Part shown: positions 2,886 to 64,000 of the stretch, one piece after another
Position numbering within the stretch: position 1 is the stretch's first letter
How the letters are laid out: every line of letters starts with the position of its first letter
Source: Prosopocoilus inquinatus
Taxonomy: Eukaryota; Arthropoda; Insecta; Coleoptera; Lucanidae
Assembly: GCA_036172665.1 (NCBI GenBank)
Contig: CM069873.1
Coordinates: 38,368,001-38,432,000 of the forward strand
Length of the DNA: 64,000 nt
Direction: 5' to 3'
The notes under the pieces: generated by a model
Databases searched by the model: none
The model's input: only the letters and a program-made list of their open reading frames with translations
What the model was told of the DNA's origin: nothing
Position numbers and translations under genes: made by a program

Positions 2886-4001
2886 TTACATCAACTGACG
2901 GAAAATTTTGGTGAGAGGTGAATAAGAGAACGCTTTGTCATGCAGAATTAAACAGTAAGCAATAGTATCAACTTTAATATTTTCTTTAGTTGTAAACTCA
3001 ATTCTTATTTCTACTGCACTTTGATGCGCTACATCTCTCTGAAAAATGCAGTCAATTTCTATTAATGGGCATCTAGTTAATCGTTTTGGATTGAACCAGG
3101 GTTGACTGCTATCGCGATGATAATAATTTTCCTGAAATCTAGAATACATGTCATATATAACGGCGTATTTGTTATTTTCAATATCAATTTCTATGTTGTC
3201 GTACGGATAGCGTTCGCCATTCAGAAATACTGTTAATGATTTTAACTTAACGTCATTAAACAGGCTCATGTTTGCATCGACGACACCCTTTCGCTTAGTT
3301 TGAAAACTCATGATTATCTACCTTAGCGTTTCCAACTACGGAGCCGTTTTTACTGTCCAAAAATGACTTGTCGTAGTTGGGAGCGACGGATACTCGTGCA
3401 ACTCCCAGCTTCTGAAAGGAATTTGTATTTCAACATCTCTGTCTGTCACTCTCGTTAAAGCCAATTGCTCACGTAGTCAAACAGAAATATAAGGTGTACG
3501 CCATACAATTTTGTCAATTATTAATTTAATCTTTTCCGTCTTGTTTGTTTCCACAACTGCATCAACGTCATGATTTGCTCTGATTAATACTAATTCTTGT
3601 CTTAAAGGTACACTTGCTGAGAAATCTCCTCTAACATTGAGTATATCACTCATTTTATCATTCTCCTGGATCCATCCTGCAATTTCCAATTTTATTGTAT
3701 GGTTGCGAATAAAAGGAAAATACCCTTTCATTGTTGAAGTTATACCAACATTTCTTACCGAATCCACCTGTATTCCGTTCAGAAGATATCTAATCTCGCT
3801 AAACATATAAGCTACCGGATTATTTATCAATTGTGCCGTCGCACTGTGTTTAGTACTATCACTAACCAAACGCAGTCTTCCCTCTACGTACAAATAACTT
3901 TCGCAAGGGAGGGTGTAATAGTCGATCTCATGTACGGTGGTACGCACTTCATCGTTGTTACCAAATGATGAACTGAATGGTAAGTGTGAATGGAACTCCA
4001 T
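2886..4001 (-). pseudogene. Major-capsid-like (candidate double jelly-roll) protein, broken
   Basis: Two minus-strand ORFs form one gene. 4001-3477 starts MEFHSHLPFSSSFG and carries strand-rich segments (EIRYLLNGIQVD, TIKLEIAGW). 3311-2886 carries SLTVFLNGERYPYDN, YDMYSRFQENYY and CLILHDKAFSY before ending in IFRQLM. Between them (about 3476-3312) same-family sequence continues in other frames. The 'PFSSSF' start and the 'YPYDN...YSRFQ...YCLILHD' series are, from family knowledge, hallmarks of a capsid-like protein widespread in invertebrate polinton-like/adintovirus-like elements. The double jelly-roll fold is inferred, not visible. A stop/frameshift near 3476 and another before 3311 make it a pseudogene. 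A minor capsid gene lies upstream and the conserved ORF 2351-2780 downstream. Confidence 0.6.
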
Positions 4002-4320
4002 ATTAGGTTATTGAAATGTCCAATTTAATTTTATCAGTCACTCCCAAAATATCCATTTCATTCTGCTTAGATGATGATTGCCTTACGTGTAATGATGGTG
4101 TTCACCCTTACATCAGGGTTACGTCTCTTCTACAGAATAATTCCCCCTATGTTAGCAACTTATAACCTTAACTCTCTAAATATATTCGATTTCTCTGTGT
4201 CAATTTCAGTTTTCTTTTGTCGACAACAGTTCAGTATCTGTTTCCGTGGTTTAAATAATACATTACGTCTAATTCTGCTACACTCTTTCCGTTTCGAATA
4301 ATTGCTATCGTAAATAATCA
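4002..4320. other. Intergenic, no gene recognised
   Basis: A short spacer between the minor-capsid-like and major-capsid-like genes. A 76-codon plus-strand frame here runs opposite to all neighbours and has no recognisable motif, so I treat it as chance. Confidence 0.5.
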
Positions 4321-5051
4321 TTATGTGAATCTTCTCAAATGAAGTCTTAGAGTAATTACTTCGTTTCTAAAATTAACTAATCGAGTCTCTTGATCTAATG
4401 GTGGAATGACTATTCTCGTAATCACGTTCACGGTCACTGGAAGATAAATAGCTTGAAGAGGGGATTCTATTATTTTAAACCCTGGAGGTACATTTGGAAA
4501 GAAATGATACAAAACATGACCGGGTTCTCCGTTGTTATAAGATCCACCGGTTAGATTACATTCTGTTCTTATAGCATTCACTTTATTTATTTCCACCGGA
4601 AAATCACCAATGTTATTATCTTTACTTTCAACGTTCTCGGTTTAAAACCCAACAATTTTCCCAATGAATTTGGTTTACTAAAATCGAGCTTAACCGAACT
4701 GTGTATGGTTGCCTTTAAAGTATTATTATTTCCTTTAATGTTTATATAATCAGGGATATTTTGATATTTTGAAAATAATATTTCAGATATTGGTTGATAT
4801 CGTCTAGTACATATGTACCTGTAGGTATAACGATAGTTTTTCAAACCGTTTCTTGTTTCTTCATAATGAATCAAATTATTACTTTCATCTATGTTAGGTA
4901 TTGCACTAAACGTTACAAAATTTAACAAGCATATTTCATATGTTGCGTCTTCATCAAGGTATAGTGGTGGATTCAATTCACAAAATAAAACTGATTTAGT
5001 TCCCGCAAGAGTGAGCGTATACGCAACGGGTGAAGATTTCATGTTGACCAT
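4321..5051 (-). pseudogene. Minor capsid (penton-like) protein of polinton-like element, frameshifted
   Basis: The ATG at 5051 opens MVNMKSSPVAYTLTLAG. The ORF includes LYLDEDATYEICLLNF and KPNSLGKLLGFKPR, then loses frame near 4590. The adjacent frame (4596-4321) continues with EINKVNAIRTECN, GSYNNGEPGHVLYHFFP, VPPGFKIIESP and LDQETRLVNFRNE. The series 'SLGxLLGF - INxVRxECN - GSYxNGxxGH - FxPxVPPGYKI' is characteristic of a small capsid partner that regularly sits next to the capsid-like gene in invertebrate elements of this type; a single jelly-roll penton role is inferred. One frameshift is seen. Gene order on the minus strand is protease, this gene, major-capsid-like gene. Confidence 0.6.
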
Positions 5052-5073
5052 TTTTCAAGTACTACATTCTCAC

Positions 5074-27912: not shown

Positions 27913-28930
27913 TGCATTTCCAACAGTATGGAATTTTTACCTCTTATTTGTCTATTGACGAAATGATTGTCAAGTATTATGGGCATCATGGATTGAAACA
28001 ATTTATAAGAGGTAAGCCTATTCGTTTTGGATATAAACTGTGAGCTTTATGCGCTGTTATAAGTTTATACTTTATACCGGCAAAGAAACAAATGCACAAC
28101 CAGGTCTAACTCTAGGATCAAGAGTTGTAACCGAATTGCTAACCTGTGTACGAAATTCGCGTGAACATGTAATATATTTTGATATTTTTTTTACAAATCT
28201 GGACCTGTTAGTACACTTGAAAAATATTGGATTTCGCGCTACTGGAACTGTACGCGACAATAGAACGAACAAATGCCCTATGAAGTCCGCAAAGGAGTTG
28301 GCTAAAGAACCTCGCGGCTCGTATGATTACAGATTTGACACTGCTTCCGATGTTTTGATGGTGCGATGGGATGACAACAAATGCGTCATAGTTGCTTCGA
28401 ATCATGACAATATTGAACCTATAGCTAAAGCAGCCCGTTGGAAACGTGAAGCAAAGCAACGAGTTGAGGTCCCGCAACCAAAACTAGTGCAAAATTACAA
28501 TAAGTACATGGGCGGTGTCGACCATCACGATTGGCTTATTTGCAAATACGGCATTCAAATACGAGGAAAAAAATGGTACTGGCCTTTGCTCATCCGTATT
28601 TTAGACATGGCAGCAACAAATGCTTGGCTTTTATACCGGTCCTTACATAGTCGAGAAGCGCTAAGCTGCCTAGAATTTCGTAGAGCGATTACTGTTCCTT
28701 ATATGAAACTCACATCTTGTGCTAAAAGAACAACGAAAGTCTCTACTACTCCCCAAGATGTTCGCTTCGATGGCCTGAATCATTTCATGCAATATCGTGA
28801 TGGTCAACGAAGATGTCAACGAAAAGGCTGCAAAAGTAGGCCCAAAAGTTATTGCATAAAATGCGATGTTACACTTTGTGGGAATTGTTTTTTGCCTTAC
28901 CATTCAAAACAGTTAAGTAATTTTTTATAA
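27913..28930 (+). pseudogene. piggyBac-type transposase, 5'-truncated and broken
   Basis: It starts at HFQQYGIFTSYLSIDEMIVK (first catalytic Asp in SIDEM), then RGKPIRFGYKL, followed by a TGA where Trp is expected and a frameshift near 28050. The 296-codon frame to 28930 has YFDIFFTNLDLL (second Asp), YNKYMGGVDHHD (third Asp) and IRGKKWYWPL, and ends in a Cys-rich domain (CQRKGCKSRPKSYCIKCD...CGNC). These are the DDD residues and C-terminal Cys finger of piggyBac transposases, which cut and paste at TTAA. The N-terminal half is missing: the frame begins in PLE sequence at 27828. Confidence 0.85.
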
Positions 28931-45890: not shown

Positions 45891-47602
45891 TTAGTGTTGC
45901 CATTCTGCATTTTCCAGGCAATTTTCACATATATATTTACTGTGTTCAAAGCGCAAGTAAGCCTTACATTTACAGCAAAAATATCTTGTTGGCCGATTTT
46001 TTTTTCTATCACAAAAACTGCATCGTACTCGTTTATTTGCTGGTTCCTCATGTTGTGGAGTATGTTCAATTCCGGAAAATTCTTTTATTCTACACTTTAG
46101 TGATCGAGAAATATGAGGTAAAGTAGCACGGTACTGAATATGTTCACTTATTAATTCAAAACAGAGTTTTCGCAAAAAAATTCTCCTTAAGATAGACGTG
46201 TCTGGATTGTTTAAGTTGAATATTACAAATTGAATTTATTCCACCTACGTTTAGTATGGCATAAAAGACTACCGTCGTCCATCGTCTCGTATTTCGAGCG
46301 CAGTTATAATCAGAACAAAGTTTATCAACGGCGTCGACACCTCCCTTTGTACCGTTATATATTATAATCATTTTGGGTTTCCCTGTATCTCCATCAATTT
46401 GGTCGTCAGGGTCCATACTGGAAATTACCAAAACATTTTTTTTTAGGGATATATAATACTAAAGTGTAATCCTCTTGAAAAGCAAACATTGACGATCTAT
46501 CGGGGCGCTTGGGTGGATTTGTGAACTCCAGAGGCAATTTTCTTGCGGATTGTTCCCAATACCGTTAATCTAAAATGTTCTTTTAAATTCCGCACTAAAT
46601 CTACACTCGTGAACCAATTATCTACAATTACATTTCTTCAAGTACTTTGGATAGGTTCACAAAGTCTCTGGACAACAGCACCAGGAGAATTGTTAACTTG
46701 AAATGGACCGTCAGGCTGTCTGCCAACATATACCTCTAGATTATTAGTGTAGAATAGCTTGGCATATATTGGCAAAAGCCGCATCTTCCGCGAAACGCGT
46801 CTAGTTTCTCGTCAACAATCACGTATTGGAATGGGGTATACGCACTTTTGCAGTTCTCTACAAAAATACCGAAAACATCTCTCATTGCAGTTAGTTTATC
46901 CAGAACCTTTCTTTCCTCGCGAGTTGTAATATCATCAAATCTCAGATGACGCAAAAAGGAAACGAAATCTATTTCGCGACATACAAAGCCTGAAAACTTC
47001 CACTTCCGAACCATCAGTTGCCCAAAGATCTTCAATATACAGTCGAGAGCTTTTCAAGACGCCAGCAAAGTAAAGTAGTCCAATAACTGCATGAATTTCT
47101 TATTTATTTGTCAAATTCGCATCTCTGATTCGGGCATAGTTTTCTTGGGCATTAATAATTTTTTATTGGTGTTTTCGACGATAATTTCCATAATGTGATC
47201 ATTAAAAAGTACTTCCAAATATCTAAAGGGGTTTTTAAGTCTCTTATGCTCCTTTTGCACCTGGTAATCGAGTTACTATATTTACAGATCTAGTTCTGAC
47301 GTTTTTAGGAGATACATGTTTTCTCCTTTTGTTATTTTGTCTTTACCAACAAAATGAGGAATTACATTTTTAGATATTTCCACCTCTAATTCAGAATCCG
47401 AGACATCCTATTCACTGTCTGAATTTTCACTATGCACACTTAGATGATCTTCCTCATTGTCTTCCTCTTCATCGTCAAATTCAGGTACTGCTGGATCTGG
47501 GTCCATTGAATCCAGCACTTCTGCATTAATTTTGCTCAACGCTCCTGTTCTTTTTCCAAGCCATTCTGCGACAAAATCAGTGAATAACGAATATAAATCC
47601 AT
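45891..47602 (-). pseudogene. Second piggyBac-type transposase, multiply frameshifted
   Basis: N-terminal start at 47602 with an acidic tract (PEFDDEEEDNEEDHLSVHSE), as in many piggyBac proteins. Then LYFAGVLKSSRLYIEDLW-type text (about 47080-47030), the frame 47035-46736 with YVIVDEKLDAFRGRCGF (first Asp), VIVDNWFTS (second Asp, about 46620), the frame 46431-46156 with YNGTKGGVDAVDKLC (third Asp) and RRWTTVVFYAILNVG, and a C-terminal Cys-rich finger (CSFCDRKKNRPTRYFCCKC) ending at 45891. It differs from the 28-kb piggyBac in every motif, so it is a separate family. At least four frame breaks. Confidence 0.8.
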
Positions 47603-47914
47603 ATGAATATTGTCTTACTGTTAAGAAATAATCCAACAATTAAAAGCAAAATTTATTTATTTTGAACTCTTTTCTTTTTCGGAACCGTGATGTCTCTGTT
47701 TTTCAGGGAAGGACAGTCTCTTCGGCCTGTGTACGGACGGATATCAGTCTATTCTCTAATTAAATTCTGTGACGCTGCCGCTACATTACACTATTTGAGT
47801 CAAATAGTATTCAAATTGCAATCTTGTTATCCTTATTTTATCTAATTTGTACTAAATAGTTTACTACAGCTGATTACAAGCGTTTATCAATAATATCATA
47901 AATGTTTTCTACCG

Positions 47915-48610
47915 ATGAGAAGTTAGCAATAAAATTATAAAATTTCAAAACGCTGCCACCGCTAAAATAACGATCACAGATCAATAACATTTAATCTATT
48001 ACAACGAGTATAATGCGTAGATACCCTTCATATGAAGAAACTGAAAAAATATTTCATATTAAGTTAACTATGACTATTTAAACCAGCATAAGTCATTAAT
48101 CATATATTGCACCAAAACAATTGCTTTCACTGAAAATTTTCACACAGCCATAAAGTAAACATACATATCTATTTAATAATGCCTTTAGAAAGTTTTAGCC
48201 GGTTGATTTAAAGTAATTAGAAAATTAATTAAATATGGCATTCACAGCAATCAAATAATACTAATTGTGAACGTCCATATCTTTTCATGCAGAATTCGCA
48301 TAAACATTCTGTTTGCAGAATATTAAAGCACGGATCGAAATCTATCGTTTAAACCACCCTCTGAGTTTTAGCCGGTTGATTGAAGTAATTAGAAATTAAT
48401 TAAAAGTGACTCTCAGATCAATGAAACAGTACCAATTTCAAATGTTCATAACTTTTCTCAGAGCATTTGCATAAAAATTCTGCTTGCAGAATATTAAAGC
48501 ACGGATCGAAATCTATCGTTTAAACCACCCTCTGAGTTTTAGCCGGTTGATTTGAAGTAATTAGAAATTAATTAAAAGTGACGCTCGGACCAATGAAACA
48601 GTACCAATTA
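47915..48610. repeat. Left arm of a long interrupted inverted repeat
   Basis: 47915-48000 is inverted relative to 58510-58632 (CGCTGCCACCGCTAAAATAA and complement), and 48060-48600 to 56885-57375. Inside, a unit of about 180 bp (TTTTAGCCGGTTGAT..., AAGCACGGATCGAAATCTAT) occurs three times in tandem. Long inverted arms built of tandem subrepeats are typical of foldback-type elements. Confidence 0.8.
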
Positions 48611-49785
48611 TTACAAAGTAATAAGTTGTGACATTGACAAGAGTAAAACAATATTAACTTTACATTGTCCCTTCTGAATTATTTTGTACTTAAAAAATCG
48701 AGATTTGTACAAACAAAAGGAATTTTCATAAGATGAATATTCTGGGCCAGAAAATGCATCTTATAAAAATTCTTGTTATTAAAAGATTTTTACAAAACTC
48801 AGACAAAAACACCTTTTATAATAAACAAATAAACCAAAATTAATGTTTTCAAATACATACACGGTTTTCAAATGTTTTGTTCTTGAAACACAGCCATCTT
48901 AATGAATTTGTAAAAAATCAAAATATCTTCTTTATTTATTAATTTCCGATAAAATGATAAAGAATCGCGAATGATTAAAGCTTCAATAAAAATACTATGA
49001 TGCAAGTGATATGTGGGAAGAAGAAAAATTTGCAAATAGAAAAGATGATTGGAGTTAGATGTCTAAAAATATCGATTCACGATTCGAATAATGCCCTTCT
49101 GAATTAAGACAAAATCCAATATAAACCGCAAGTTTTAACAAATTTTCAGCATTAAAAGTGTAATTTAACGAGGTATCACAAGAGGTACTTTGCTACTTGA
49201 ATTTTTAAAGTTGGGGTTGTTATATCTTAGAGATGGGGGATTGAAAATTACATCCTCAAATGATGATTTAAAAATAAAAATCGACCTGAGAATTCTTCCT
49301 TTTCTTAACCATTTTATAGAATTTATCCGTTACTTTTAGGAAACACTGTATACATACAATAACTTCATAATTATTAAGGTACGAAATCGTTCAAATCATC
49401 AGTAACAATGAACCCACAATTAAGCGGCGATACCAAAAAAACAATAATATCTTCACATGTAAACTTTTCTTTAATGAAATATTCCGTATTTTTTGTTGTG
49501 AAAATAAAGAATAATAAATTCTAAATATAAAGTACTCTTTACTACTTATCCTCAGAACAAATAATAAAGGAGTTATTGCGACATTTGTACTCATCATTAA
49601 AAAAAATCATTAAAAATCTGCTACAATTCAGCTAAATTGCAACAGGGTTCTCGATAGCGATTTCGGCCCTAATTGAGGCCTCATCAGAAGAAGAACATAT
49701 CGAGAATTCCACCGTAATCTGACTGATCCGGTCAGCTTACGCATGGACAATGCTTAATTACTAATCTTGAGTAAAAGCAGTATAT
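48611..49785. other. Non-coding flank of the LTR element, with a hammerhead-like motif
   Basis: Dispersed repeat shared with 21.2-21.6 kb at 49195-49345. At 49647-49702 (minus strand) a canonical CTGATGA, stem GGCC/GGCC, GAAA and a GTTCT/AGAAC stem appear, but stem III is not convincing. No gene. Confidence 0.4.
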
Positions 49786-50088
49786 TGCCATGAACGTGCC
49801 CCAGAGGCCACCTGTCGGTGGGTATCTGGAATAATGAAGGAGGGGTACCAGGTAAGCGGGATGTGAGAGACACAGTGACTAGTGGAAGGTGCTGCCTGGT
49901 ACACCTCCTCTTTTGGGGGACAATAAACTGCTTATATAACCGGAGACTGGAGTAATTATTGGATCCCCCATAGAGAACTGCCGGTAAGTACCTTTTTCAT
50001 TGTCACAGGTACCTCGAGCTAGCGCGACGACCCCCAAGGAGAGGGATACGACCCCCCAAATTTCGAACCCTCGGTGGGGTACGTAACA
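49786..50088 (+). mobile_element. 5' LTR of errantivirus-like element
   Basis: 303 bp with TG...CA ends. It differs from the 3' LTR (56228-56530) at only three positions that I can find, all transitions. Flanked by the 4-bp duplication ATAT (49782-49785 and 56531-56534), the target length of Gypsy-type integrases. It contains AATAAA (49922) and TATATAA (49933). The near identity implies a recent insertion. Confidence 0.95.
49933..49939 (+). promoter_or_regulatory. LTR TATA box
   Basis: TATATAA about 150 bp from the LTR end, just after an AATAAA. Probable core promoter of the element; identical in the 3' LTR. Confidence 0.5.
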
Positions 50089-50089
50089 A

Positions 50090-50107
50090 TGGTGGAGGCG
50101 CTTAAAA
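50090..50107 (+). other. Primer-binding site
   Basis: TGGTGGAGGCGC starts one base after the LTR. TGG complements the CCA tail of tRNAs, so a tRNA ending GCGCCUCCACCA would be the primer; I cannot name it without a tRNA search. About 500 bp of leader follow. Confidence 0.55.
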
Positions 50108-50609
50108 AGCTCGATGTACCAAATTATTGTTCTGTAATTAGGTACATTTAAATTCTGTATTATTTTGGATATTTTCACTGAACAATCTCAATATCTCAGT
50201 GGAAACAAAAATACAGAATAGATAATACAATAATTTAAATAATTACTTTTTGTCAGTTTTGAGCGTATATTTAAATAAAAAATAAATATTTTAATATTTT
50301 CTGTAAACTGGAAAAGTACAGGCGCGTATCGCAGTCAGCAATTTTGTCAGGTCGCTAACCGTAAAAAGAACCGAAGTAAGTGCGTAATATTTTGCCGCCG
50401 CCGCCGGTCGACCGTAATCTGCGGAATAAGTGTTTTCCGAGTAAAAACTTCCGTTGGTAGCTAGCATTGATTAATAAGCAAAATTCTTAACGCGTACTTT
50501 GTGGGACAAAACTGAATTAAAATTAAACGCATTAGATAAAATTTCAGCGTATCAAATAAACATTTCTCAATAAATAATTATAAAAAAAAAAAAATTAATC
50601 TTGCGTAAA

Positions 50610-53081
50610 ATGGCTTCCGGAACAAGAAGCAAAACAAAAAGTCAAGATGAAACGCCAAAAACGGGAGACAAATTTGATTTTGACATCGCACTGGATCGGG
50701 AGGCATTCTTCCCTGCTACCAGAAGTATTTTAACACCGTGTTCACCTGTTGAGAAAGAAGCGCCGGTAGATAGTCAGAATTTAAGGCTGGAAGCCTCCAA
50801 AATATCCACCACAAAAAATGTGCGAATGATAACACTGAGAAAAGAACCAATCAGCGGTCACTTAGGACTCACAAGAACGTTAGATAAAATTAAGAAAAGA
50901 TTCTTTTGGCATGAAATGAATAAAGATATCACCAAATACTTTAAGTCTTGCGCAGAATGTCAGATAAGAAAAGGGCCCACAAACCAGAAACCAGCCGGGC
51001 TATTAAACCCCATTACAGTAGGAGCTCCATTCGAAATGATAGGAATAGATCTACTGGGACCTTTTCCAAGAAGCACGATGGGAGCTAAATACATTATTGT
51101 AGCAACAGATTATGCAACGAGATGGGCTGAAGCCAAGGCATTACCATCAGGAAAAGCAGAACCAGTTGCAAAGTTTATAGTAGAAGAAATAATTTGTAGG
51201 CACGGTTCGCCGAAGAAAATTTTAAGTGATGGTGGGACAGTATTTATGTCAAAAATGATTACAGAAATCGTGAGATTGCTGGGATCAAACAATACTTACA
51301 CTACAGCCTACAAACCCTCTACGAATGGGTTAACAGAGATGTTAAATAAGACTATTGTGGACATGATCAGCAAATATACCTCTACGTCACAAAAAGACTG
51401 GGACACATATCTACCACACTGTATTTTTGCCTATAATTCAACTATACAGGCGGCAGTAAAAACAAGTCCTTTTGTAATGGTTTACGTTAGAGAACCAGTG
51501 TTGCCAAGTGACGCAGAACTTGGGCAGCCGATGTTCACTGATTACGGCATTAAAAATCAAAAAATTATACAAGAAATAAGAGAACTAGCGGCTAAAAATC
51601 TAGAAATTAAACAAACGGAAGATAAAATTAGGTATGATGAAAAACATAGAGAAGTCAAATACAACGTAGGTGATTTAGTTAAAGTCAAAAATTTTATTAG
51701 ACAAGTAGGAAAAAGTGATAAACTTCAACCAAATTATTCAGGACCTTTCAAAATAATAGAAAAACGCAACGACTTAAATTATGTAATTCAATTTGGGACA
51801 GGAAAGAGAAAAAAACAAGATATAATTCATGTCTCACGCTTAGCGCCATACTATATGGAATGGAACAAAGAAAATGAGGTGAGGAGCAAAAAAGGAAAGA
51901 TAAGAAACATTGAAGCTCAAAATTCATTGATTAACGAGAAAAAGCAAGATAAAATAAAAAACACTACACGCGAATATTATACTTCTAAACTAAAACAACA
52001 ACGAAATATTAAGAATATAAAAAATAATATTAAAAAGACAATAAATACCGATAAATCACCTTTGGAAAACAATGAAGTAAAACGTCAAAATGAACCACTT
52101 AAAAAGAGTCCTAATAAAATTCAAAAAAATAGCGAAATTTTCAGAAAACAATATTCGGATAAAATAACCGAAAACGTATCACTAAACAATCATAAAGATT
52201 CTTCAATCTCAAACAGAACTAAAGGGTTAGTTAACCTCGGAAATACATGTTATTTCAATGCAATCATTCAATGTCTGGCTAATACCGAACCCCTTAAAAA
52301 ATTCTTTTTAAATTATAAATTCAACTCTCTCCACTGTTTAAGGAAAGGCAGTGTTATGGATATTTTTGCTGAAATTATTATGGACTTGTGGAAGTCAACT
52401 TGGCCATGGGTAGTTAATATAAAGCAACTGAAAAATAAACTTTCAGAGAAAATTGAAATATTTGTGGGAAATAACCAACAGGATGCGCTTGAAGCATTAT
52501 ATTACATACTACAGGAAATAGTAAATGAAAATATCATTTCTGAAATGATTACTGAATTAGCGGAAACCAAAATTCAATGCTCAAAATGTGGACAGGAATC
52601 AAGTATGACTAATCAATTCCAAAATTTATCATTCCAAATAACAAACTTGGAAAATGAAAGTACGTTTCAAAAACATCTAGAGAATTTTATGGTCGGTACA
52701 AAAGAAGTTATTGAGCTTAACTGTGACTCATGTGGTACAAAGACAAAATGTAATAAATTTTGGAAAATCCTAAAATTGCCGCAGATATTAATAATTCATC
52801 TAGAGAGATACGCTTGGAATGGCAAAGCAGTGGAAAAAATAAACAAAATTGTAAAACCTCCTATAAATAAAATGTGTATAAATGAAAGTTCAGTAAATTA
52901 TCAGTTATACGCAACTGTAAATCATGTAGGTGATTCTCGAAATGGGCATTATTTTGCTCAAATTAGAGACAGGAAACATAAGGCCTGGTTAATGTATAAT
53001 GATAGTCAGGTAACGGATATGCAATCAGAAGAAATAGATACAGAAAATTGTTATCTATTATTTTATGAAAAAATAAAGTAA
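50610..53081 (+). CDS. Gag-start / Gypsy integrase / ubiquitin-specific protease fusion protein
   Basis: Unbroken 823-codon frame; I take ATG 50610 as the start because the frame's upstream TTG is no better. Residues 1 to about 60 look like a Gag N-terminus. Integrase follows: zinc-binding region with H84 and C114/C117 (the first His of HHCC is replaced, RKEP in place of HxxP), core with D147, D207 and E243 (exactly 35 residues between the last two), and a GPF-type C-terminal module at about 378. A Lys/Asn-rich linker spans about 425-535. From about 537 comes a USP (C19) domain: Cys box GLVNLGNTCYFN (C547), QQDA box near 624, Zn ribbon C657/C660 and C705/C708, LPQILIIHLERY, and His box NGHYFAQIRD (H780) with YND (D798). 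All catalytic residues of a deubiquitinase are present. Protease, RT and RNase H, expected between Gag and integrase, are absent. An env gene follows on the same strand. Confidence 0.93.
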   Translation: MASGTRSKTKSQDETPKTGDKFDFDIALDREAFFPATRSILTPCSPVEKEAPVDSQNLRLEASKISTTKNVRMITLRKEPISGHLGLTRTLDKIKKRFFWHEMNKDITKYFKSCAECQIRKGPTNQKPAGLLNPITVGAPFEMIGIDLLGPFPRSTMGAKYIIVATDYATRWAEAKALPSGKAEPVAKFIVEEIICRHGSPKKILSDGGTVFMSKMITEIVRLLGSNNTYTTAYKPSTNGLTEMLNKTIVDMISKYTSTSQKDWDTYLPHCIFAYNSTIQAAVKTSPFVMVYVREPVLPSDAELGQPMFTDYGIKNQKIIQEIRELAAKNLEIKQTEDKIRYDEKHREVKYNVGDLVKVKNFIRQVGKSDKLQPNYSGPFKIIEKRNDLNYVIQFGTGKRKKQDIIHVSRLAPYYMEWNKENEVRSKKGKIRNIEAQNSLINEKKQDKIKNTTREYYTSKLKQQRNIKNIKNNIKKTINTDKSPLENNEVKRQNEPLKKSPNKIQKNSEIFRKQYSDKITENVSLNNHKDSSISNRTKGLVNLGNTCYFNAIIQCLANTEPLKKFFLNYKFNSLHCLRKGSVMDIFAEIIMDLWKSTWPWVVNIKQLKNKLSEKIEIFVGNNQQDALEALYYILQEIVNENIISEMITELAETKIQCSKCGQESSMTNQFQNLSFQITNLENESTFQKHLENFMVGTKEVIELNCDSCGTKTKCNKFWKILKLPQILIIHLERYAWNGKAVEKINKIVKPPINKMCINESSVNYQLYATVNHVGDSRNGHYFAQIRDRKHKAWLMYNDSQVTDMQSEEIDTENCYLLFYEKIK

Positions 53082-53347
53082 TAAACTCTGTAAGTAAGAT
53101 ATAAATTATAGATAGTTATAATTAGAATAAGTAATAAGATAAGAAAACATTAGAAGGGAACAGGTGTACGTATAGGGTGTAAAATGACATAATCCATATT
53201 AATCTTATGCAAACACTAATATATTTTTTGTGCAGGTACTTACGGAAATAAACCATATCTAGCGGAAGACAGACGTAGGAAAAAGAGAGCCAACTCACAT
53301 CAAAATAAAAGTTATAATTTGCAGGAAATTGTAGAAATTCCTAAGCC
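53082..53347 (+). promoter_or_regulatory. pol-env spacer with a possible splice acceptor
   Basis: A pyrimidine-rich TATTTTTTGTGCAG near 53235 and a second TTTGCAG near 53323 precede the envelope start. Insect errantiviruses express env from a spliced mRNA, so one of these may be the acceptor; this is inference. Confidence 0.35.
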
Positions 53348-55260
53348 ATGGCGGATATCCGGAAAATATTACAATGGATACTAGTAATAGGCGTAATCAA
53401 AGGAATATCAGTCAGAGCAACACTGGAAGAAACAGAAGAATTCTATTCGATTCAACAATTTCAGAATACATCGGGGAAGAAGAAGGTAATCTATTTTTAA
53501 CCAATACTTTTTGGAAATTACTAACATTCATAGACTTGAAAATATACGAACAAAAATTTAGTCAGATAAAAAACATATATGAAGAAACAAGTCAATTATG
53601 TGGAAAAAAAGATCTTGCTGAAGGTAATATTTGTGGAAACTATATTCACATTGCAAATCAGACCATTGCTAGACTAATTTGGGAAAAAAATTTAATTCCA
53701 AATTTGTTAGTTCATCACAGATCTAAAAGAGGATATTTTGATGCTGTAGAAAAATTATCAAAAGTATTATTTGGAACACTTACAGAGGAAGACGCTCAAA
53801 ATTTTAAAGACGGAATAGAAATGATCAAAAACAAACAAACAAAAATAATCAATATCGTAGAACAACAAACATCAATAATAAAATCAACCGTAGATTCTCT
53901 AAATAATACATTAGGTCATGTTGAACACAATGAAAAAATTATTGCTCACAATTTTAATATTATTAAAAGTATTGTAAATGAAACCTCTCACCAGGTAGAC
54001 TATCTTTACCATATAGATCGGCATTTAAAAGACCACATGGAATTATTTACGTTAATCATGAACCAATTTCAGTTAGAAATTTCTAATTTAATTAATATTA
54101 TAATGTTTGCTAAACGAGGTCATGTACATCCCTTACTAATTACCCCGACAGAAATAATAAAAGAAATGCAAAAAATTTCAACGATCATACCTGATGGATT
54201 AAAATTCCCTATAAATTATCAAAATTATGATGAAAGCGAAATTTTATTTCAAATTATTACAGTTACTTCATTCATACAAGATTCAACAATGGGAATGAAT
54301 ATAAGAATTCCTTTAGTTCAAGTAAAGCCTTACTTACTATTCAGAATTACACCAATTCCGTTGCGAATACACCAAAATAAATTTTTATCCATAAAAATAC
54401 AATATCCTTACATAGCAACTAATGATTTACATACTGAGTATTTTCGTATAACTTCTGAGGAGAGAAGTAAATATATCCTTCTAAAAAATAATAATTATAT
54501 TTTAAGGGAAGCTAAATTTATAATTCATTCGAATGATAAACCATGTGAAACGGAACTTTTAAAACCAATAAAGAGCATACCAAGAAATTGTGAAAAAGAG
54601 ATAATTCATCTCGCAAAATTGAAATTAAAAGAAACAAATACTGTAAATTCTTGGATATTTATTTCATTATATTCAGAAACTTTACATTTAATGTGCACAA
54701 AAAATCAATCACAAATAACTCTCCATGCTGAACTGTGCGACTCAGGAATGTTGAAACTATCACCTGATTGCAAAGCATTTAGTTTTGCAAAACAGTAGAG
54801 TTTTCTCAAAATTAGAATATAAATAAGCCATACAAAATTAATTTATTAAATAATAGCGTGTATAATGAAAGTTTCATTGACAGTTTAAAAAATATGGACA
54901 TGGGAAAACTAAATGAAATTATGGATGCTGAAAATTATAATGAAAATACTAAAAAGTTACATGAAATTAAAGCAACACTGAGAAAGTTAAAAGATGATTC
55001 AAGTTTTAAAAGTAAAGCTCAGATTCATTCCAGTCTTTTGTATAGCACTGTAATAGTGATATTAATTATCATAATATATTTTGTAATTAGATGGGTAAAA
55101 CACAAATGTGTTAAAAAAAAATGGAAATGATCATGCTCAAAATGCATCTATTGAATTAAAAACCTATGAGGAAGGGTTATTTGTTCTGCCTGATGGTAGA
55201 AAATGCAGAGTAAATTTAAAAGCTGCAACATCGCGTGATGAACTGAATCACCTAGTCTGA
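53348..55260 (+). pseudogene. Envelope (baculovirus-F-like / errantivirus Env) gene, frameshifted
   Basis: The ATG at 53348 opens a hydrophobic signal-peptide-like segment (ILQWILVIGV). Frame is lost near 53440, and the main frame (to 54798, 474 codons by its own in-frame ATG) carries a Trp-Lys-Leu-Leu-Thr motif, two Cys-containing stretches, a furin-type RSKR site (residues 116-119 of that frame) followed by a Gly-Tyr-Phe fusion-peptide-like region with LFGTL, and long heptad-like helices. A stop at 54796 and a shift lead to a third frame with a transmembrane helix (about 55030-55085). A run of eight or nine A near 55110 shifts the frame again before a cytoplasmic tail ending at 55258. A TAG near 54813 also interrupts. 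The layout is that of insect retroviral Env related to baculovirus F. With at least three breaks it cannot be translated as one protein here. Confidence 0.8.
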
Positions 55261-56212
55261 TCAATAGGTGAAAACAAATCATTTCGTGATGTAACAGATC
55301 ATTAATTATAACACGTAAGAATATAAGTACACATTATAGTACATATTCAACTTTGTAGTAGTTTCTAGGTTAATTGTTCGGTTCAGGCAAGTGTTTTTAG
55401 GCATACAAAAAACTGTGAGGATGAGTGGCCAATCATTCTCACAGTACACAAAAAAAAGAACTTGCATGAACTAATAAAATTTGTAAAACTAATGATAAGT
55501 AACAGATTTTTGTAAATGAACCCCCAGTAGTCATAATATCTATATATATAAAAAAAGAAAATTCATATCTTGATACTGCGATTATTTGTTGCATATCTTC
55601 CACCGGGGATTGGTACAAGTCAAAATGCTGCAGGAAGAAACAGCTTCGGGCAGTCTCGCATCTCCAGTCTTTGGGTCACGATGGAGTACACAGCCATTCG
55701 CTGTGACCGGAGGCCGTAACTGCTAATTTATGGCATGAAGAAGTCGGAACCTGGTTAAATTATGGTGTGGACAATTCCGCAATGTGCGATTATTTCTGTC
55801 CAACCAATATAACCCCGCTATGGACAGGATATTCCGCAAAGACGACGATTGGTGCTGAAGTAACTGCTGAATAGAAAATTGTTTTCCTTCCTGGGTGGAA
55901 TTACTACTGGAACACACCAGGGGAGCCGTGGGATTACCCCAATGCCTAGCCCTCTCTGCAACACATGGTGATCGTAAGAGTGAACAACACCGAAAACACC
56001 GCCGCCAAAAGAAAAAAAAAATTACGCTCAAAATGGCTACCACGTGGATGAAAATTAACCACAAAGTTTCTAATAAAACAAATTCCATGTTCAGAAAAAA
56101 TGTCAAATGATGTAATATGTAACTTGTAAATTGTAATGGGGAACGTTCAAGGCAGAAACCTTAAAACCTCAAAATTGATGAATTCAAATGAAAATGCCAG
56201 GAGGCATATTTT
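55261..56212 (+). other. 3' untranslated part of the LTR element
   Basis: No convincing ORF. A 127-codon minus frame (55723-56106) is a chance frame. A plus-strand stretch near 55735-55860 reads open for about 40 codons but matches nothing I know. It could hold sequence picked up by the element, as errantivirus 3' regions are short. Confidence 0.4.
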
Positions 56213-56225
56213 GGAGGGAGGGGGA
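56213..56225 (+). other. Polypurine tract
   Basis: GGAGGGAGGGGGA immediately before the 3' LTR; plus-strand priming site of reverse transcription. Confidence 0.8.
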
Positions 56226-56227
56226 AT

Positions 56228-56530
56228 TGCCGTGAACGTGCCCCAGAGGCCACCTGTTGGTGGGTATCTGGAATAATGAAGGAGGGGTACCAGGTAAGCG
56301 GGATGTGAGAGACACAGTGACTAGTGGAAGGTGCTGCCTGGTATACCTCCTCTTTTGGGGGACAATAAACTGCTTATATAACCGGAGACTGGAGTAATTA
56401 TTGGATCCCCCATAGAGAACTGCCGGTAAGTACCTTTTTCATTGTCACAGGTACCTCGAGCTAGCGCGACGACCCCCAAGGAGAGGGATACGACCCCCCA
56501 AATTTCGAACCCTCGGTGGGGTACGTAACA
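56228..56530 (+). mobile_element. 3' LTR of errantivirus-like element
   Basis: 303 bp, TG...CA. Differences from the 5' LTR: CCGTGAACG for CCATGAACG, TGTTGG for TGTCGG and GGTATACC for GGTACACC. Followed by the target duplicate ATAT. Confidence 0.95.
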
Positions 56531-56594
56531 ATATTTTTGCCAATTTGTACGACTTCGTACCTTCCATAATAACGAAGTTGTTGTGTGCATAGGC

Positions 56595-56925
56595 ACACAA
56601 CAACTCCACCCTCTGAGTTTTAGCCAGTTGGTTTGAAGTAATTAGAAATTAATAAATTATGACGTTTGCAACAATAAAAGAAAACTTTACTTTGCGCTTT
56701 GTGAATTATGGCCAAGGTCTGAAGTTTGCATTGAGTACACAGGATGTTCAAAGTTTTTGTTATATAACAAAAACACCCTGTGTACTCAATGCAAACTTCA
56801 GACCTTGGCCATAATTCACAAAGCGCAAAGTAAAGTTTTTTTTTATTGTTGCAAACGTCACAATTTATTAATTTCTAATTACTTCAAACCAACTGGCTAA
56901 AACTCAGAGGGTGGTTTAAACGATA
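56595..56925. repeat. Near-perfect palindrome, about 150-bp arms
   Basis: From CCACCCTCTGAGTTTTAGCC to its complement GGCTAAAACTCAGAGGGTGG, with a short loop near 56755-56765 (AGTTTTTGTTATATAACAAAAAC). The arm contains GTTTGCATTGAGTACACAGG. Its outer part is the same subrepeat as in the long inverted repeat arms. Confidence 0.9.
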
Positions 56926-57375
56926 GATTTCGATCCGTGCTTTAATATTCTGCAAACAGAATTTTTATGCAAATGCTCTGAGAAAAGATATGCACATTTG
57001 AAATTGGTAGTGTTTCATTGGTCTGAGAGTCACTTTTAATTAATTTCTAATTACTTCAAATCAACCGGCTAAAACTCAGAGGGTGGTTTAAACGATAGAT
57101 TTCGATCCGTGCTTTAATATTCTGCAAACAGAATGTTTTTGCGAATTCTGCATGAAAAGATATGGACGTTCACAATTAGTATTATTTGATTGCTGTGAAT
57201 GCCATATTTAATTAATTTTCTAACTAATTTAAATCAACCGGCTAAAACTTCATAAAGGCATTATTAAATAGATATGTATGTTTACTTTATGACTGTGTGA
57301 AAATTTTCAGTGAAAGCAATTGTTTTGGTGCAATATATAATGACATGCTGGTTTAAATAGCCATAGTTAACTTAA
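56885..57375. repeat. Right arm (inner part) of the long inverted repeat
   Basis: Inverted match to 48060-48600, including AAACGATAGATTTCGATCCG twice, GATATGGACGTTCACAATTAG and CAATTGTTTTGGTGCAATATA. The outer part of the arm lies at 58510-58632, so about 1.1 kb separates the two pieces on this side. Confidence 0.85.
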
Positions 57376-58509: not shown

Positions 58510-58632
58510 TTTTTTGGAGGGTAATCAGTAGATTAAATATTATTGATCTGTGATCGTTATTTTAGCGGTGGCAGCGTTTTGAAATTTCATAATTTTATTG
58601 CTGGAATTTTATTGCTAACTTCTCATCGGTAT
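58510..58632. repeat. Right arm (outer part) of the long inverted repeat
   Basis: ATTGATCTGTGATCGTTATT and GCTAACTTCTCATCGGTA are the complements of 47980-48000 and 47915-47935. A short duplication (AATTTTATTGCT twice) is specific to this side. Confidence 0.8.
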
Positions 58633-59679: not shown

Positions 59680-59978
59680 TGTAGCGTGGGTTTCTTATTT
59701 TATTTCCAAAAAAATTTAGATTCGAAGTTTATAAGAAAAGTTGGATGTATTTCACTATTTTAATTATAATATTAATTGAATTTGAAAACGATATTAATTA
59801 ATGAGAAAAAAAAACAATATACATGAAACTGAACTTCATGAAGGGTGCGTCCGTTTATTTCAACCACACCGGCAACTCTGTCTCTTTTTGCGAAACAAAT
59901 ATCCTTCCACCACGCACACCCCCGATCCCAGTTCTCTTTCCCTCCGTAAGAAGGCGACACTTCCCGGGGGGCTATACA
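59680..59978 (-). mobile_element. Probable 3' LTR of second Gypsy element
   Basis: On the minus strand the element's polypurine tract (AGAGGGGGAG, 59988-59979) is followed by TGTATAG. A matching end TACA lies at 59680-59683 (TGTAGCG on +), giving a 299-bp LTR with TGTA...TACA ends and an AATAAA near 59857. The other LTR is outside the window, so the inner boundary is supported only by the polypurine tract and the end motif. Confidence 0.55.
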
Positions 59979-62900
59979 CTCCCCCTCTGGCTTCGAAGGC
60001 GTCTCGGCGAGGAAGCCAGTCGGTCCGTCTTCGGACGTCGTCCACGTTTTCTGCGCGGTAGCACGGCTTCCACCGGGGCTGCTTCTTCCCTGGAGTGGAA
60101 AGGTCGCAGGTCACTGACGTGGAATTTTCCCAAAAGTTCACCGTCCGCATTCACAATTTCGTACGTGGTTGGACTGCATCGTCGGTGAATCCGATAGGGA
60201 CCGTCGCGTCTCGGTGCAAACTTAGCAGAAAACCCCTTCTTAGCGTTACTCAGCGGGTGACAAGTTACCAAAACCTGGTCACCAGTCCGGAGTGGAGCAC
60301 CAATGCTACGTTTTTCATCCGCTTGATCTTTCCGGAGATCTTGGCGTCTTTCCCAAGTTTCTTTAGCCTCCCGTAGCACTCGCGAAAAGTCACGTAGATA
60401 GGGGGTGATTTCGGGGACGAAATTGTCCCGGTCTATTATCGCCCTCAGGTCTCGTGTCACATCATCTGGGGTGCGAAGTTGACGGCCAAACGTTAAGTAA
60501 GCTGGAGTGTGACCCGTCGACTCACACAGGGCCGTATTGATGGAAAACCGCACCGCGGCGATATGCTCGTCCCACGTGTTATGACGCTGCTGTACGAGAA
60601 TGGCTAATTTCACCTTAAGATCCCTGTTCTTTCTTTCAACCGGGTTACTCTCTGGGTGGTAGAGGGGTATTAAGGTGTGCTGGATGTTAAGACAGAAGGC
60701 CACTTGTTGCATTACTGAACTAACGAATTGCGTACCGTTATCCGAAATTATACGACGCGGGGTACCGTAACGCATGCAAATGTCTTCAATAATGACTTTA
60801 GCACACTGTTCACTCGTTGCCTGCTTCAGGGGAAAGAATTCCACCCACTTGGAGGTGGTGTCTTCAACACATAATACCCAACGGTTTCCCTCTGGAGTCT
60901 CAGGTAAGGGTCCAAAAAGATCTACAGCAATTACTTCAAACCTTTTCGCAGCAACGGGGGTTTGTAGTAGTCCGGCTGGCTTCATGTTGTCAGCCTTGTA
61001 TTTCTGACATTCCACGCAGTCTCGGATATAATCGGCGACGTATTTTCTCATGCCCGTGAAATAAAACCTAGAGGCTATCCGTTGCACCGTTCTGTCGATT
61101 CCATAGTGACCGGCCCGTGGCGAATCATGGTATTCCTGCAAAATCGAGGCACGCTCTTGTGCCGGCACTACTCGTCGAGCTTCGTCGCATCCGTCATCTT
61201 GATCATAGCGGTACAAGACTCCCTGTGCCATGATATATCCCCGCTCCGCCCACCGGGTTCCGGACATATCGTCACCTTCAAAAGCATCAATGATATTTTT
61301 TACCTCTGCGTCCTGAAGTTGAGCCTCACGAACTTCCTGGGCTGTCCGAACTGGTAGATCCACAAGGACAGGTTGAATTTCCACAACGGCGTCTGAATTT
61401 TTCATAGGTAGCCTGGATAAGGCATCGGCCAGCATATTTGCTTTTCCCGGTGTGTACGATAGATTTAAATGGTACCCTTGTAATTGGAGAGCCCACCGTG
61501 CTAAGCGTCCGGTCGGTGATTTTATGGAGAACAACCATTTCAGAGGCTGGTGGTCCGTCATAACAAGGATTTCGCTTCCCTCCACGTAACTTCGAAATGT
61601 CTCCATAGCCCAGACGACGGCAAGAGCTTCTCGCTCGGTGGTAGAATATTTGTTTTCCGCGGGCTAGCAAATTCTATCGGGCGTTCCTCAGCACCCTCCC
61701 CCTGCAATAAAATAGCTCCCAGCGCATACGCACTCGCGTCGGTCCGTAGGAGGTAAGGCTTAGAGGGATCTGCTTGTTGCAAGATAGGGGCTTGGGTTAA
61801 TAGCGTCTTTAGATTGTCAAAAGCGTTCTGTTCCTCTTCTTCCCAACGCCACACGGCTTTCTTTTTAGTAAGCGCGGAAAGTGGTCTTACCACAGCGGCA
61901 AAATTCGGGATATAACGCCTATACCACGAACACATTTGGTAAAAGCTTAGGACACCTTTAACGTTCTTTGGCGGCGCGATATTTATGATAGCGTCTACCT
62001 TGCTTTTATCGACGTGAACACCATCTGACGAAATTACATGTCCTAAATACTTAACTGTGCTACCGGCGAAAACGCACTTCTCGCGACGAGCGCACAATTT
62101 AAAAGTGTCCAATCTGTCAAATACCGCACGTAAGTCTTCTAAGTGTTCATCGAAGGTGCACGAAATCACTATCAAGTCATCTAAATAGGCGGATACCGCA
62201 CGATCCTTTAATCCCGCACGAAACCTATCCATTAATCGTTGAAATGTCATTGGTGCATTAGTTAGGCCAAACGGCATTCGCGTGAAACGGTAAGTTCCTA
62301 GAGGACAGATGAAACAGGTTTTGTCACGATCTTCTTCGCGGACTCGCACCTGCCAGTAACCTGACTGTAGATCCATGGTGGTGATGAAATTGGTAGCCTA
62401 TTTGCATGCAGAAGATCATCCAGCCGAGGTATGGGATAACTGTCTCTCGTAGTGATAGTATTCATACGTCTGAAATCCACACAAATACGAACGGTCCCAT
62501 TTTTCTTAGGAACCATCACGAGCGGCGCCGACCAAGGGGATTCACACTCTTCAATTATTCCATCAGAGAGCATCGAATCTAACTCCTTCCGCAATAGCTC
62601 TTTTTTTGCGGGGCTCATGCGGTATGGTGGCACGGCAATTGGTGCGTGATCTCCGGTATCAATTTTATGTTCTGCGTATGGGGTAGGTTCTTGGTTCTTT
62701 TGGAAGATGTGCGAGTAGGCTTCCAACAACTCGTTTAGCTGCTGGCGTTGCTCTGTCGTGAGATTTTGCCCTTCATCCGCACGAAGGTCCACTTCGACCG
62801 TCTTGGTCTCTTGTAGAGCCACCGTCACGTCAGCCGTTACAGGTGTATCATCCACGAATTGATACTTTATCTCCGGTCGATCCGCAAAACTCCAGGTATT

Positions 62901-64000
62901 GTCGCTGTAATTCGCAACTATACCAGCTCGACGGAGAACGTCCATACCAAAGAGGGTCCTATTATTTTGAAGGTGCGGTAACATTATTAGAGTAACCGAT
63001 ATGTACCTATCTTGAATGACAACTATGACATCTGCCGTTAGGACGTTCTGTTTTTGGGGCACTCCGTCCGCATACGCAATCGTCATCGTTGTAGCTTCGA
63101 ATGGGTGATTTCTCATTTTTAAGAATTCGTACACGCGTCGGCCACCAATACTTGCCTGCGCCCCTGAATCAGCGAATGCAATTCCGTTGCATCCGAATAG
63201 GCGAAATGGTAGCAATGATTTCGTACCGGGCGTGTCTGAATATGTTTTGAGGATGTCCGCATAGTTTAATAGAATCTGGGAGTCATCGCTTGTATGGCGC
63301 TGAGTCAGGGTCGGGTTACAAGTCAGACATTTCGCTCGAATTCTACCAGGGGTTCCGCAACCGTAACATTTTAGTTGTGAACCAGCTGATGCGGAGGGTG
63401 CATCAGAATTAATTTGTTTCGCCGTTTTTCGCAGTTTAGTTTGGCACTCCTCCGTGGTGTGACCAAAATTACGGCAAAATGTGCACCGCGGTCGAACTTT
63501 ATTTTGTGTTTCCAACGGTTTTTGTTTGGCTACTTTTTGCTTTGAACCATGCACTTCGTTTAACTGCTGTTCCGTTTCGCGAGCAAGTTGCAATAAGTCG
63601 TCAAACGTTTTTGCTTCTTCTCGTTTTACCCACTTTCGAATTTTCCTATTCAGCAGGCCGTAAATCATATCCAACTGAATATCGGTAGAGGGTGGATTTT
63701 TTAAACGCGCTAATAACGCTCTCGCTTTACTAACGAAAATGTCTGTCGTCGTATTTTCGTCTTGTTCTGCCGCGAAAAGTTCCCGATAGATTTGTTGCGC
63801 GGGTTTTTCCGGACCAAACGAGTTTTTCAGCGCACTAGTTGCGGCTTGCCAGTCCGAAACGCTAGATTTAACACCTAACCACCAGGTGGCGGCATTCCCC
63901 GTCAACAACATCGACAGTCCCCGGATAGCGTTCTCGTCCGTAATACCGACACAATCCTTATAAGTGTTAATCACATCGATGAATGTTTCTACGTTTTCAT
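59972..64000 (-). pseudogene. Gypsy (Ty3-like) Gag-Pol polyprotein, partial at window edge, two frameshifts
   Basis: Open at the window edge (64000), so the Gag start is outside. Order: Gag C-half (GNAATWWLG), zinc knuckles CTFCRNFGHTTEEC and a second, odd one with Arg for His (CYGCGTPGRIRAKC), protease FADSGAQAS, RT from KKNGTVRICVDFRR to the catalytic YLDDLIVIS, RNase H (RTDASAYALGA, TTEREALAVV, MTDHQPLKW, LADALSR), integrase with HDSPRAGHYG/CVECQ zinc site and D-D-E (AVDLFGP, ISDNGTQF, NPVERKN), and a GPY module (RRDGPYRIHRR). Frame is lost near 62400 and again near 61660 (small out-of-frame deletion). The last codons overlap the polypurine tract, and the stop TAG lies in the first bases of the LTR. 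No env and no USP domain. Codon use is much GC-richer than its surroundings. Confidence 0.9.

Follow-up and report, generated by a model that had tools for sequence, protein, structure and literature searches.

A lineage of env-bearing, probably errantivirus-like long terminal repeat (LTR) retroelements in the beetle Prosopocoilus inquinatus carries a ubiquitin-specific protease (USP) domain at the C-terminus of its Pol protein, in one frame with the integrase. One damaged copy, 6745 bp long, lies at 49786-56530 of the 64,000-nucleotide stretch of DNA analysed in this work (the window; GenBank assembly GCA_036172665.1, contig CM069873.1, positions 38,368,001 to 38,432,000 of the forward strand), and relatives were sought throughout that one genome (649.6 Mb, 173 contigs). 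The reading favoured here, to which a probability of about 0.5 is given, is that the window copy belongs to this lineage, damaged by deletion, and that the USP at the end of Pol protects the integrase or the complex that contains it.

The window frame is open from 50574 to 53081, with its first ATG at 50610 and a predicted product of 823 residues. This single protein matched Integrase_H2C2 (1.7e-14), integrase C-terminal domains and UCH/USP (4.4e-43, residues 539-819) in Pfam; its rve match (7.7e-7, 29.8 bits) falls below the curated cut-off of 32.6 bits. In the translation, D147, D207 and E243 of the integrase core stand at DD35E spacing, a Lys/Asn-rich linker follows the integrase, and the USP landmarks are N542, C547, QQDA at 623, CxxC at 657/660 and 705/708, H780 and D798. 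A sequence-only reading made beforehand had described a single unbroken frame with a Gypsy integrase bearing the DD35E triad, a Lys/Asn-rich linker and a USP, set in an env-bearing Gypsy-type LTR element whose env was already damaged. Translation and Pfam agree with it on the frame and on all of the USP landmarks, the LTRs and the Baculo_F and Pfam matches agree on the type of element, and env was found spread over three frames (Baculo_F 8.9e-25). One correction concerns the integrase, which is incomplete: its first zinc-finger His is lost, with Arg/Lys where aligned relatives show His, and the H2C2 match starts at model position 17 versus position 1 in a fuller copy.

The window copy is a defective deletion derivative. 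Protease, reverse transcriptase (RT) and RNase H are absent, and the frame begins with a segment resembling the start of Gag in a related family of the same genome (family B, below; 36% over residues 17-80, E 1.3e-6), and this segment is joined to the integrase because about 4.66 kb of internal sequence, present in L012 of the window copy's own family, has been deleted; similarity to fuller copies jumps at 50834/50841. The two LTRs are identical at 304 of 307 aligned positions, a few flanking bases included. The parts of the element are as follows; the primer-site and purine-tract entries are what we take these sequences to be.

49782..49785, no strand: 5' target site repeat ATAT, from the sequence, repeated at 56531-56534
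49786..50088, + strand: 5' LTR, TG...CA, by comparison with the 3' LTR
50090..50101, + strand: putative primer binding site TGGTGGAGGCGC, by its position after the LTR; identical to the 12 bases after the 5' LTR of a family-B copy
50610..50834, + strand: Gag N-terminal remnant fused in frame to the integrase, by family-B Gag similarity and the similarity jump
50841..51851, + strand: Gypsy-type integrase minus the first zinc-finger His (H2C2 part, core and C-terminal domain), by Pfam and alignment
51852..52223, + strand: Lys/Asn-rich linker, from the translation
52224..53066, + strand: USP (peptidase C19) domain, residues 539-819, by Pfam UCH, conservation, model and fold match
within 52224..53066, + strand: USP catalytic residues C547, H780 and D798, Cys-box N542, and zinc cysteines C657, C660, C705 and C708
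53335..55130, + strand: damaged F-type env, by Baculo_F and three-frame translation; main part open at 53335-54798, the signal-peptide-like start and the transmembrane part being read in other frames
56213..56226, + strand: presumed polypurine tract directly 5' of the 3' LTR, by eye
56228..56530, + strand: 3' LTR, by LTR comparison
56531..56534, no strand: 3' target site repeat ATAT, from the sequence

A six-frame search of the genome with the window USP gave 72 matches, and 20 stretches of 9.9 kb were read around USP matches. By similarity they form at least four families: A (the window copy and L009-L014), B (L016-L020, L027 and L028), C (L021-L024) and D (L025 and L026); L015 is a decayed fragment whose USP pieces are 58-63% identical to the window USP. 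Family B has the whole order, with Gag, then protease, RT, RNase H, integrase and USP, then an F-type Env (Pfam on separate pieces: Gag, aspartic protease, RT, RNase H, integrase and UCH at 1.1e-57; Baculo_F at 1.2e-31 in the 656-residue Env of L017), and 17 of the 72 USP matches lie in stop-free family-B frames of exactly 1764 amino acids. Pfam also places UCH in one frame with integrase parts at one scanned locus each in families A, C and D, the family-D frame (L026) holding only the later part of the integrase before UCH; RT and RNase H were recognised by Pfam in family B and through similarity in the other three. In a family-B copy flanked by the target repeat AAAG, the two LTRs are free of mismatches along their 385 aligned columns and differ by a single gap, and we infer that the family is young. 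Three family-B USPs on the forward strand (G000:C5:47390377, 47401859 and 47413341) are spaced by exactly 11482 bases, which approximates a full copy with both LTRs (about 11.49 kb) and not one LTR plus the interior; they represent either an unusual tandem array or a duplication.

The nearest twin of the window copy, L009 (G000:C5 near 46.78 Mb, about 8.4 Mb away), is 99.7% identical in the USP; most of its env is gone, and a further Gypsy element lies a short way downstream of it. Because the flank is common to both copies (46378-53602 at 99.65%), L009 was read as a segmental duplication and an independent insertion was ruled out. This twin and the deletion junction in the window copy are what could be said for a local rearrangement or an assembly artefact having joined an integrase to a host USP. 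The junction, however, is between Gag and integrase and not between integrase and USP, integrase is followed by USP at many loci in four families, and no close non-element USP was seen; the recurrence in four families, the whole order of family B and its 17 open frames refute such a join, which we regard as having a negligible chance of being correct.

Membership of the USP family was assessed by alignment, structure prediction and fold comparison. The Cys box, the His box and the catalytic Cys, His and Asp are present, and the predicted fold is of the fingers-palm-thumb type with two CxxC zinc pairs. When the window domain was aligned with 64 other USPs, N542, C547, H780, D798 and the four zinc cysteines all fell in conserved columns, and the domain kept 33 of the 38 columns conserved at ≥90%, versus 32 of 167 variable columns (one of the five conserved columns missed is that with which the excised piece begins). 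The AlphaFold model of the domain has a mean pLDDT of 90.6, and its top Foldseek match in the PDB is USP2 (E 2.1e-29, TM-score 0.84, 27% identity). The solved structures that matched best were USP2, then USP15, USP21 and USP8. Given this pLDDT, the USP2 E-value and the recurrence of the arrangement in the genome, the USP match is far beyond chance. Cellular USP2, USP21 and USP8 are alike to the element domain in fold (by the model) and catalytic motifs; they differ in sequence, with at most about 33% identity over the near-full domain (P0157), and in standing on a separate branch.

Key residues were then compared over 38 copies (6 from family A, 26 from B, 4 from C and 2 from D). All 38 retain the equivalents of N542, C547 and H780, 37 retain that of D798, and 36 have all four zinc cysteines; three copies have a stop inside the domain. 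With one row per family, the catalytic triad, Cys-box Asn and zinc cysteines are kept in A-D, and conserved columns are kept at 33/37 (A), 33/37 (B), 29/37 (C) and 29/37 (D), versus 31/161, 35/178, 37/177 and 27/175 of the variable columns (15-21%). The sequence-only reading had named three outcomes that would count against it, and none occurred: other copies do carry the USP, the domain is not joined to the integrase only here by a local rearrangement, and C547 and H780 are unchanged in all 38 copies compared.

To describe how widespread the arrangement is, the genome was searched with the family-B integrase, giving 114 matches, 93 of which were compared with the 72 USP matches (20 matches at 36-37% identity and one short piece were left out). 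A USP lies downstream in 48 of the 93, two of these being pieces of one locus; conversely, an integrase lies upstream on the same strand within 1 kb of 53 of the 72 USP matches and within 5 kb of 57, and the remaining 15 look like fragments and host genes. A search of the genome for full-length relatives with the integrase-USP order had been proposed in the sequence-only reading. Binned by integrase identity to family B, the USP is downstream in 26/26 loci at 98-100%, 11/12 at 79-84%, 2/3 at 73-78%, 8/35 at 67-72%, 1/5 at 60-66% and 0/12 at 45-59%. The DNA 3' of the integrase was read at four loci of the USP-less class (L048-L051), and elsewhere the lack of a USP is by search alone. At L048 and L049, assigned to families E and F, Pol ends right after the integrase and an open env frame starts within about 150 bases; at L050 and L051 no USP was found in the DNA after the integrase. 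The genome also holds other families with integrases 36-37% identical to that of family B (for example G000 C8:44392905 and C5:33122271), with open frames of 1916-1953 amino acids and many copies.

The origin of the domain was examined by separate trees of USP and integrase sequences. The six element rows fall into a single clade when 77 USPs are placed in a tree (support 98/80, and 99% of 200 bootstrap replicates), and in a 39-row tree that includes three host USPs of the same genome the element clade has support of 100/99, with long branches meeting elsewhere in the tree. In a 31-row integrase tree the eight rows from USP-bearing elements likewise form one clade (98/97), neighboured by families E and F and then by two Popillia japonica proteins that stop 7 residues past the integrase; among the matches listed, the nearest integrases are those of Popillia japonica, at 54-57% identity. 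The branching is A,(C,(B,D)) in both USP and integrase trees, with a weaker B-D node (95/72 and 84/54 in the USP trees, 93/89 in the integrase tree). Since integrases and USPs of the USP-bearing families each give one clade, a single in-frame capture of the USP, immediately behind the C-terminal domain of the integrase, is likely, and a separate capture in each family was ruled out. A recent capture from a host USP was also ruled out, the highest identity to a non-element USP across almost the entire domain being 33% (P0157). A USP tree had been expected to point to the host donor; the element clade stands on a separate branch, and the smaller tree, to which three host USPs of the same genome had been added out of 108 UCH matches, named none. 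Scans of viral_contigs and genome_contigs found no relatives, and an alignment of four element USPs used as query brought up two distant ones (25% and 32%) on IMG/VR contigs. One protein, P0086 (1293 amino acids), has RVT_1 followed by a USP that sits among arthropod USP8 sequences in the 77-USP tree, and looks like a separate, unrelated joining of RT and USP.

Rates of change were compared among Pol, Gag and Env parts. Identity to family B for families A, C and D, respectively, is about 81%, 85% and 87% in RT, about 71%, 82% and 83% in the integrase, and 32-33%, 42-44% and 47-50% in the USP. Gag parts are 32% identical between A and B and 45% between B and C, and Env 41% and 56%; by these comparisons the USP changes roughly as quickly as Gag and a little more quickly than Env. 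Between families, the proportion of nonsynonymous differences (pN) in the USP is 0.29-0.43 and that of synonymous differences (pS) 0.68-0.82, with synonymous sites saturated; pN is 0.06-0.11 in RT (239-241-codon pieces), 0.09-0.19 in the integrase and 0.24-0.41 in the protease. Within families, USP variants counted by column and not on a tree were 14 synonymous and 26 nonsynonymous in family A (5 rows, p 0.012), 9 and 19 in family C (4 rows, p 0.087) and 8 and 18 in family B (p 0.13, with L027 excluded and 25 of 26 rows used); in each family pN/pS is below 1, and it is 0.49 when the three are pooled (p 0.0014). A selection check on the USP part had been proposed beforehand, and its outcome, with pN below pS between families as well, indicates purifying selection on a fast-changing domain.

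The tempo of the USP bears on a counter-defence role, in which the enzyme would remove ubiquitin that host restriction ligases had put on Gag, Env or a host factor, while its surface tracks a changing target. The match in pace with Gag (32% versus 32% for A-B, 43% versus 45% for B-C) and the combination of fixed catalytic residues with free variable columns are consistent with such a role. An arms race is nevertheless not demonstrated, since synonymous sites are saturated between families, and the within-family pN/pS below 1 in A, B and C and an equally fast protease also speak against it; we rank it third and consider it unlikely.

The evidence for function differs between the window copy and its relatives. 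The unbroken window frame had been taken as a hint of retained or recent function, and this did not hold up: in simulations with substitutions only, at half the LTR divergence, 56% of 5000 frames gained no stop, so the open frame is weak evidence of function. RT is missing from this copy, and its nearest twin arose by segmental duplication. Better evidence is provided by the 17 open 1764-residue frames of family B together with conservation across four families. That the USP is a passenger, a neutral or structural extension of Pol with no enzymatic role, fits with related families living without it, but nearly all of the 38 copies keep the catalytic and zinc residues, as do four families whose USPs are 32-50% identical, and pN is well below pS; such a passenger is accordingly very improbable.

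Several points count against a protective role for the USP and are collected here. Sister families E and F live in the same genome without it, so the USP is not needed for such elements as such. Family B alone does not reach significance for purifying selection, and family D has a within-family pN/pS of 1.22 (2 rows; left out of the pool). Gag and protease change fast too, so the pace of the USP does not single out a USP function. No protein with integrase and USP was found outside this genome among 120 of 239, 29 of 29 and 73 of 73 protein matches examined, an absence that is weak evidence because the protein searches were limited by candidate length and shared words.

The favoured mechanism, protection of the integrase or its complex, may be set out in steps. 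Anatomy and the two concordant trees indicate a single in-frame gain of the USP by Pol, behind the C-terminal domain of the integrase. Being the final portion of Pol, the USP should enter particles with the integrase, and by its residues, predicted fold and selection it is probably a working deubiquitinase, at least in young family B. In the least certain step, it would strip ubiquitin from the integrase or the tethered incoming complex, which would thereby escape proteasomal loss in the entered cell. HIV-1 integrase, for comparison, is described as degraded via TRIM33 and ubiquitin, with Ku70 counteracting (PMC10144533). Of the candidate targets, the integrase or its complex has the most support, since that is where the fusion places the enzyme and since retroviral integrases are lost through ubiquitin. 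It is possible, if on balance doubtful, that a particle-borne deubiquitinase held covalently on the integrase arrives in the newly entered cell with the pre-integration complex and there, by removing ubiquitin, determines either what becomes of the complex or where in chromatin the insertion falls.

The main alternative to protection is that the integrase-tethered USP deubiquitinates H2A/H2B at the target, opening or selecting the insertion site. The domain sits at the end of the integrase, where some Gypsy elements carry chromodomains. The USPs Ubp8 (of SAGA) and Ubp5 are listed among host factors promoting Tf1 integration in fission yeast (PMC5741268). No histone- or SAGA-binding part was recognised in the protein, though; the linker (51852..52223) had no Pfam match at E ≤ 0.001, and the top structure matches are USP2-type, with Ubp8 chains ranking at about 43-50. 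We hold a chromatin role to be improbable.

Among known systems, insect errantiviruses and endogenous retroviruses (ERVs; Metaviridae, Gypsy type, F-like Env) are the closest in LTRs, 4-bp target repeats, Gag-Pol-Env order and Baculo_F Env; they differ in that Pol here ends in a USP, whereas in the sister loci L048 and L049 it ends right after the integrase. The label errantivirus-like is given on the strength of LTRs, target repeats, gene order and Env. A term search found no 'ubiquitin' in the main text of a 2025 insect ERV paper (PMC12992720), and no retroelement with an integrase-USP protein was described in the titles and abstracts covered, most subscription papers lying outside this coverage.

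Ginger1 DNA transposons, according to PMC2836005, resemble the present element in combining a Gypsy-type integrase with a C-terminal cysteine protease of the ubiquitin/SUMO pathway on the same protein; they differ in having terminal inverted repeats, OTU or Ulp1 as the protease, and neither RT nor Env, where the present element has LTRs and a USP. A Ginger-type transposon was ruled out by the LTRs at the ends, by RT, Gag and Env in fuller copies, and by the protease being a USP. Helitrons, according to PMC9741609, carry VTD and OTU deubiquitinase domains and so are alike in having a deubiquitinase on the main protein of a mobile element; they are rolling-circle elements with RepHel and other protease families. 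A Trichomonas vaginalis transposase carrying peptidase C19 (also from PMC2836005) is alike in bearing a USP-class domain on a DDE transposase, and differs in being of the Transposase_11 (IS4) type and no retroelement. A domesticated plant Gag is reported in PMC9784723 to carry non-protease parts of USP7.

Other features of the window were recorded around the element. It is flanked by long inverted repeats with tandem units of 171-172 bp (about 48059-48609 and 56841-57375), and a further inverted pair lies at 47925-47998 and 58529-58602; the LTR element probably landed inside an existing DNA transposon or satellite structure. Because they lie outside the LTRs, the inverted repeats (48059-57375) are no sign of Ginger1. 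A second Gypsy-type element at 59972-63998 (- strand) has a GC content near 0.5 versus about 0.32 elsewhere, and only its RNase H-integrase frame was scanned. A transposase fragment occupies 45891-47053 (- strand; Pfam DDE_Tnp_1_7 in two frames at 46156-47053), and a frame at 28037-28930 (+ strand) resembles a transposase fragment, by eye only. Neighbouring open frames of 143-176 amino acids at 2886-5054 (- strand) look like one related gene set.

Key residues of the enzyme have been kept while the lineage split into at least four families, which suggests that ubiquitin removal helps the element to spread. Unrelated mobile elements, among them Ginger1 and Helitrons, took up ubiquitin/SUMO proteases, and retroviral integrases are lost through ubiquitin; at stake is the reason for such uptake. 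Within this one genome the gain of the USP can be placed on a tree, beside USP-less sisters and a young family with open frames, and the role of deubiquitination in integration can therefore be compared and tested directly. If the USP does travel in particles on the integrase, it would be a particle-borne deubiquitinase within a retroviral-type Pol.
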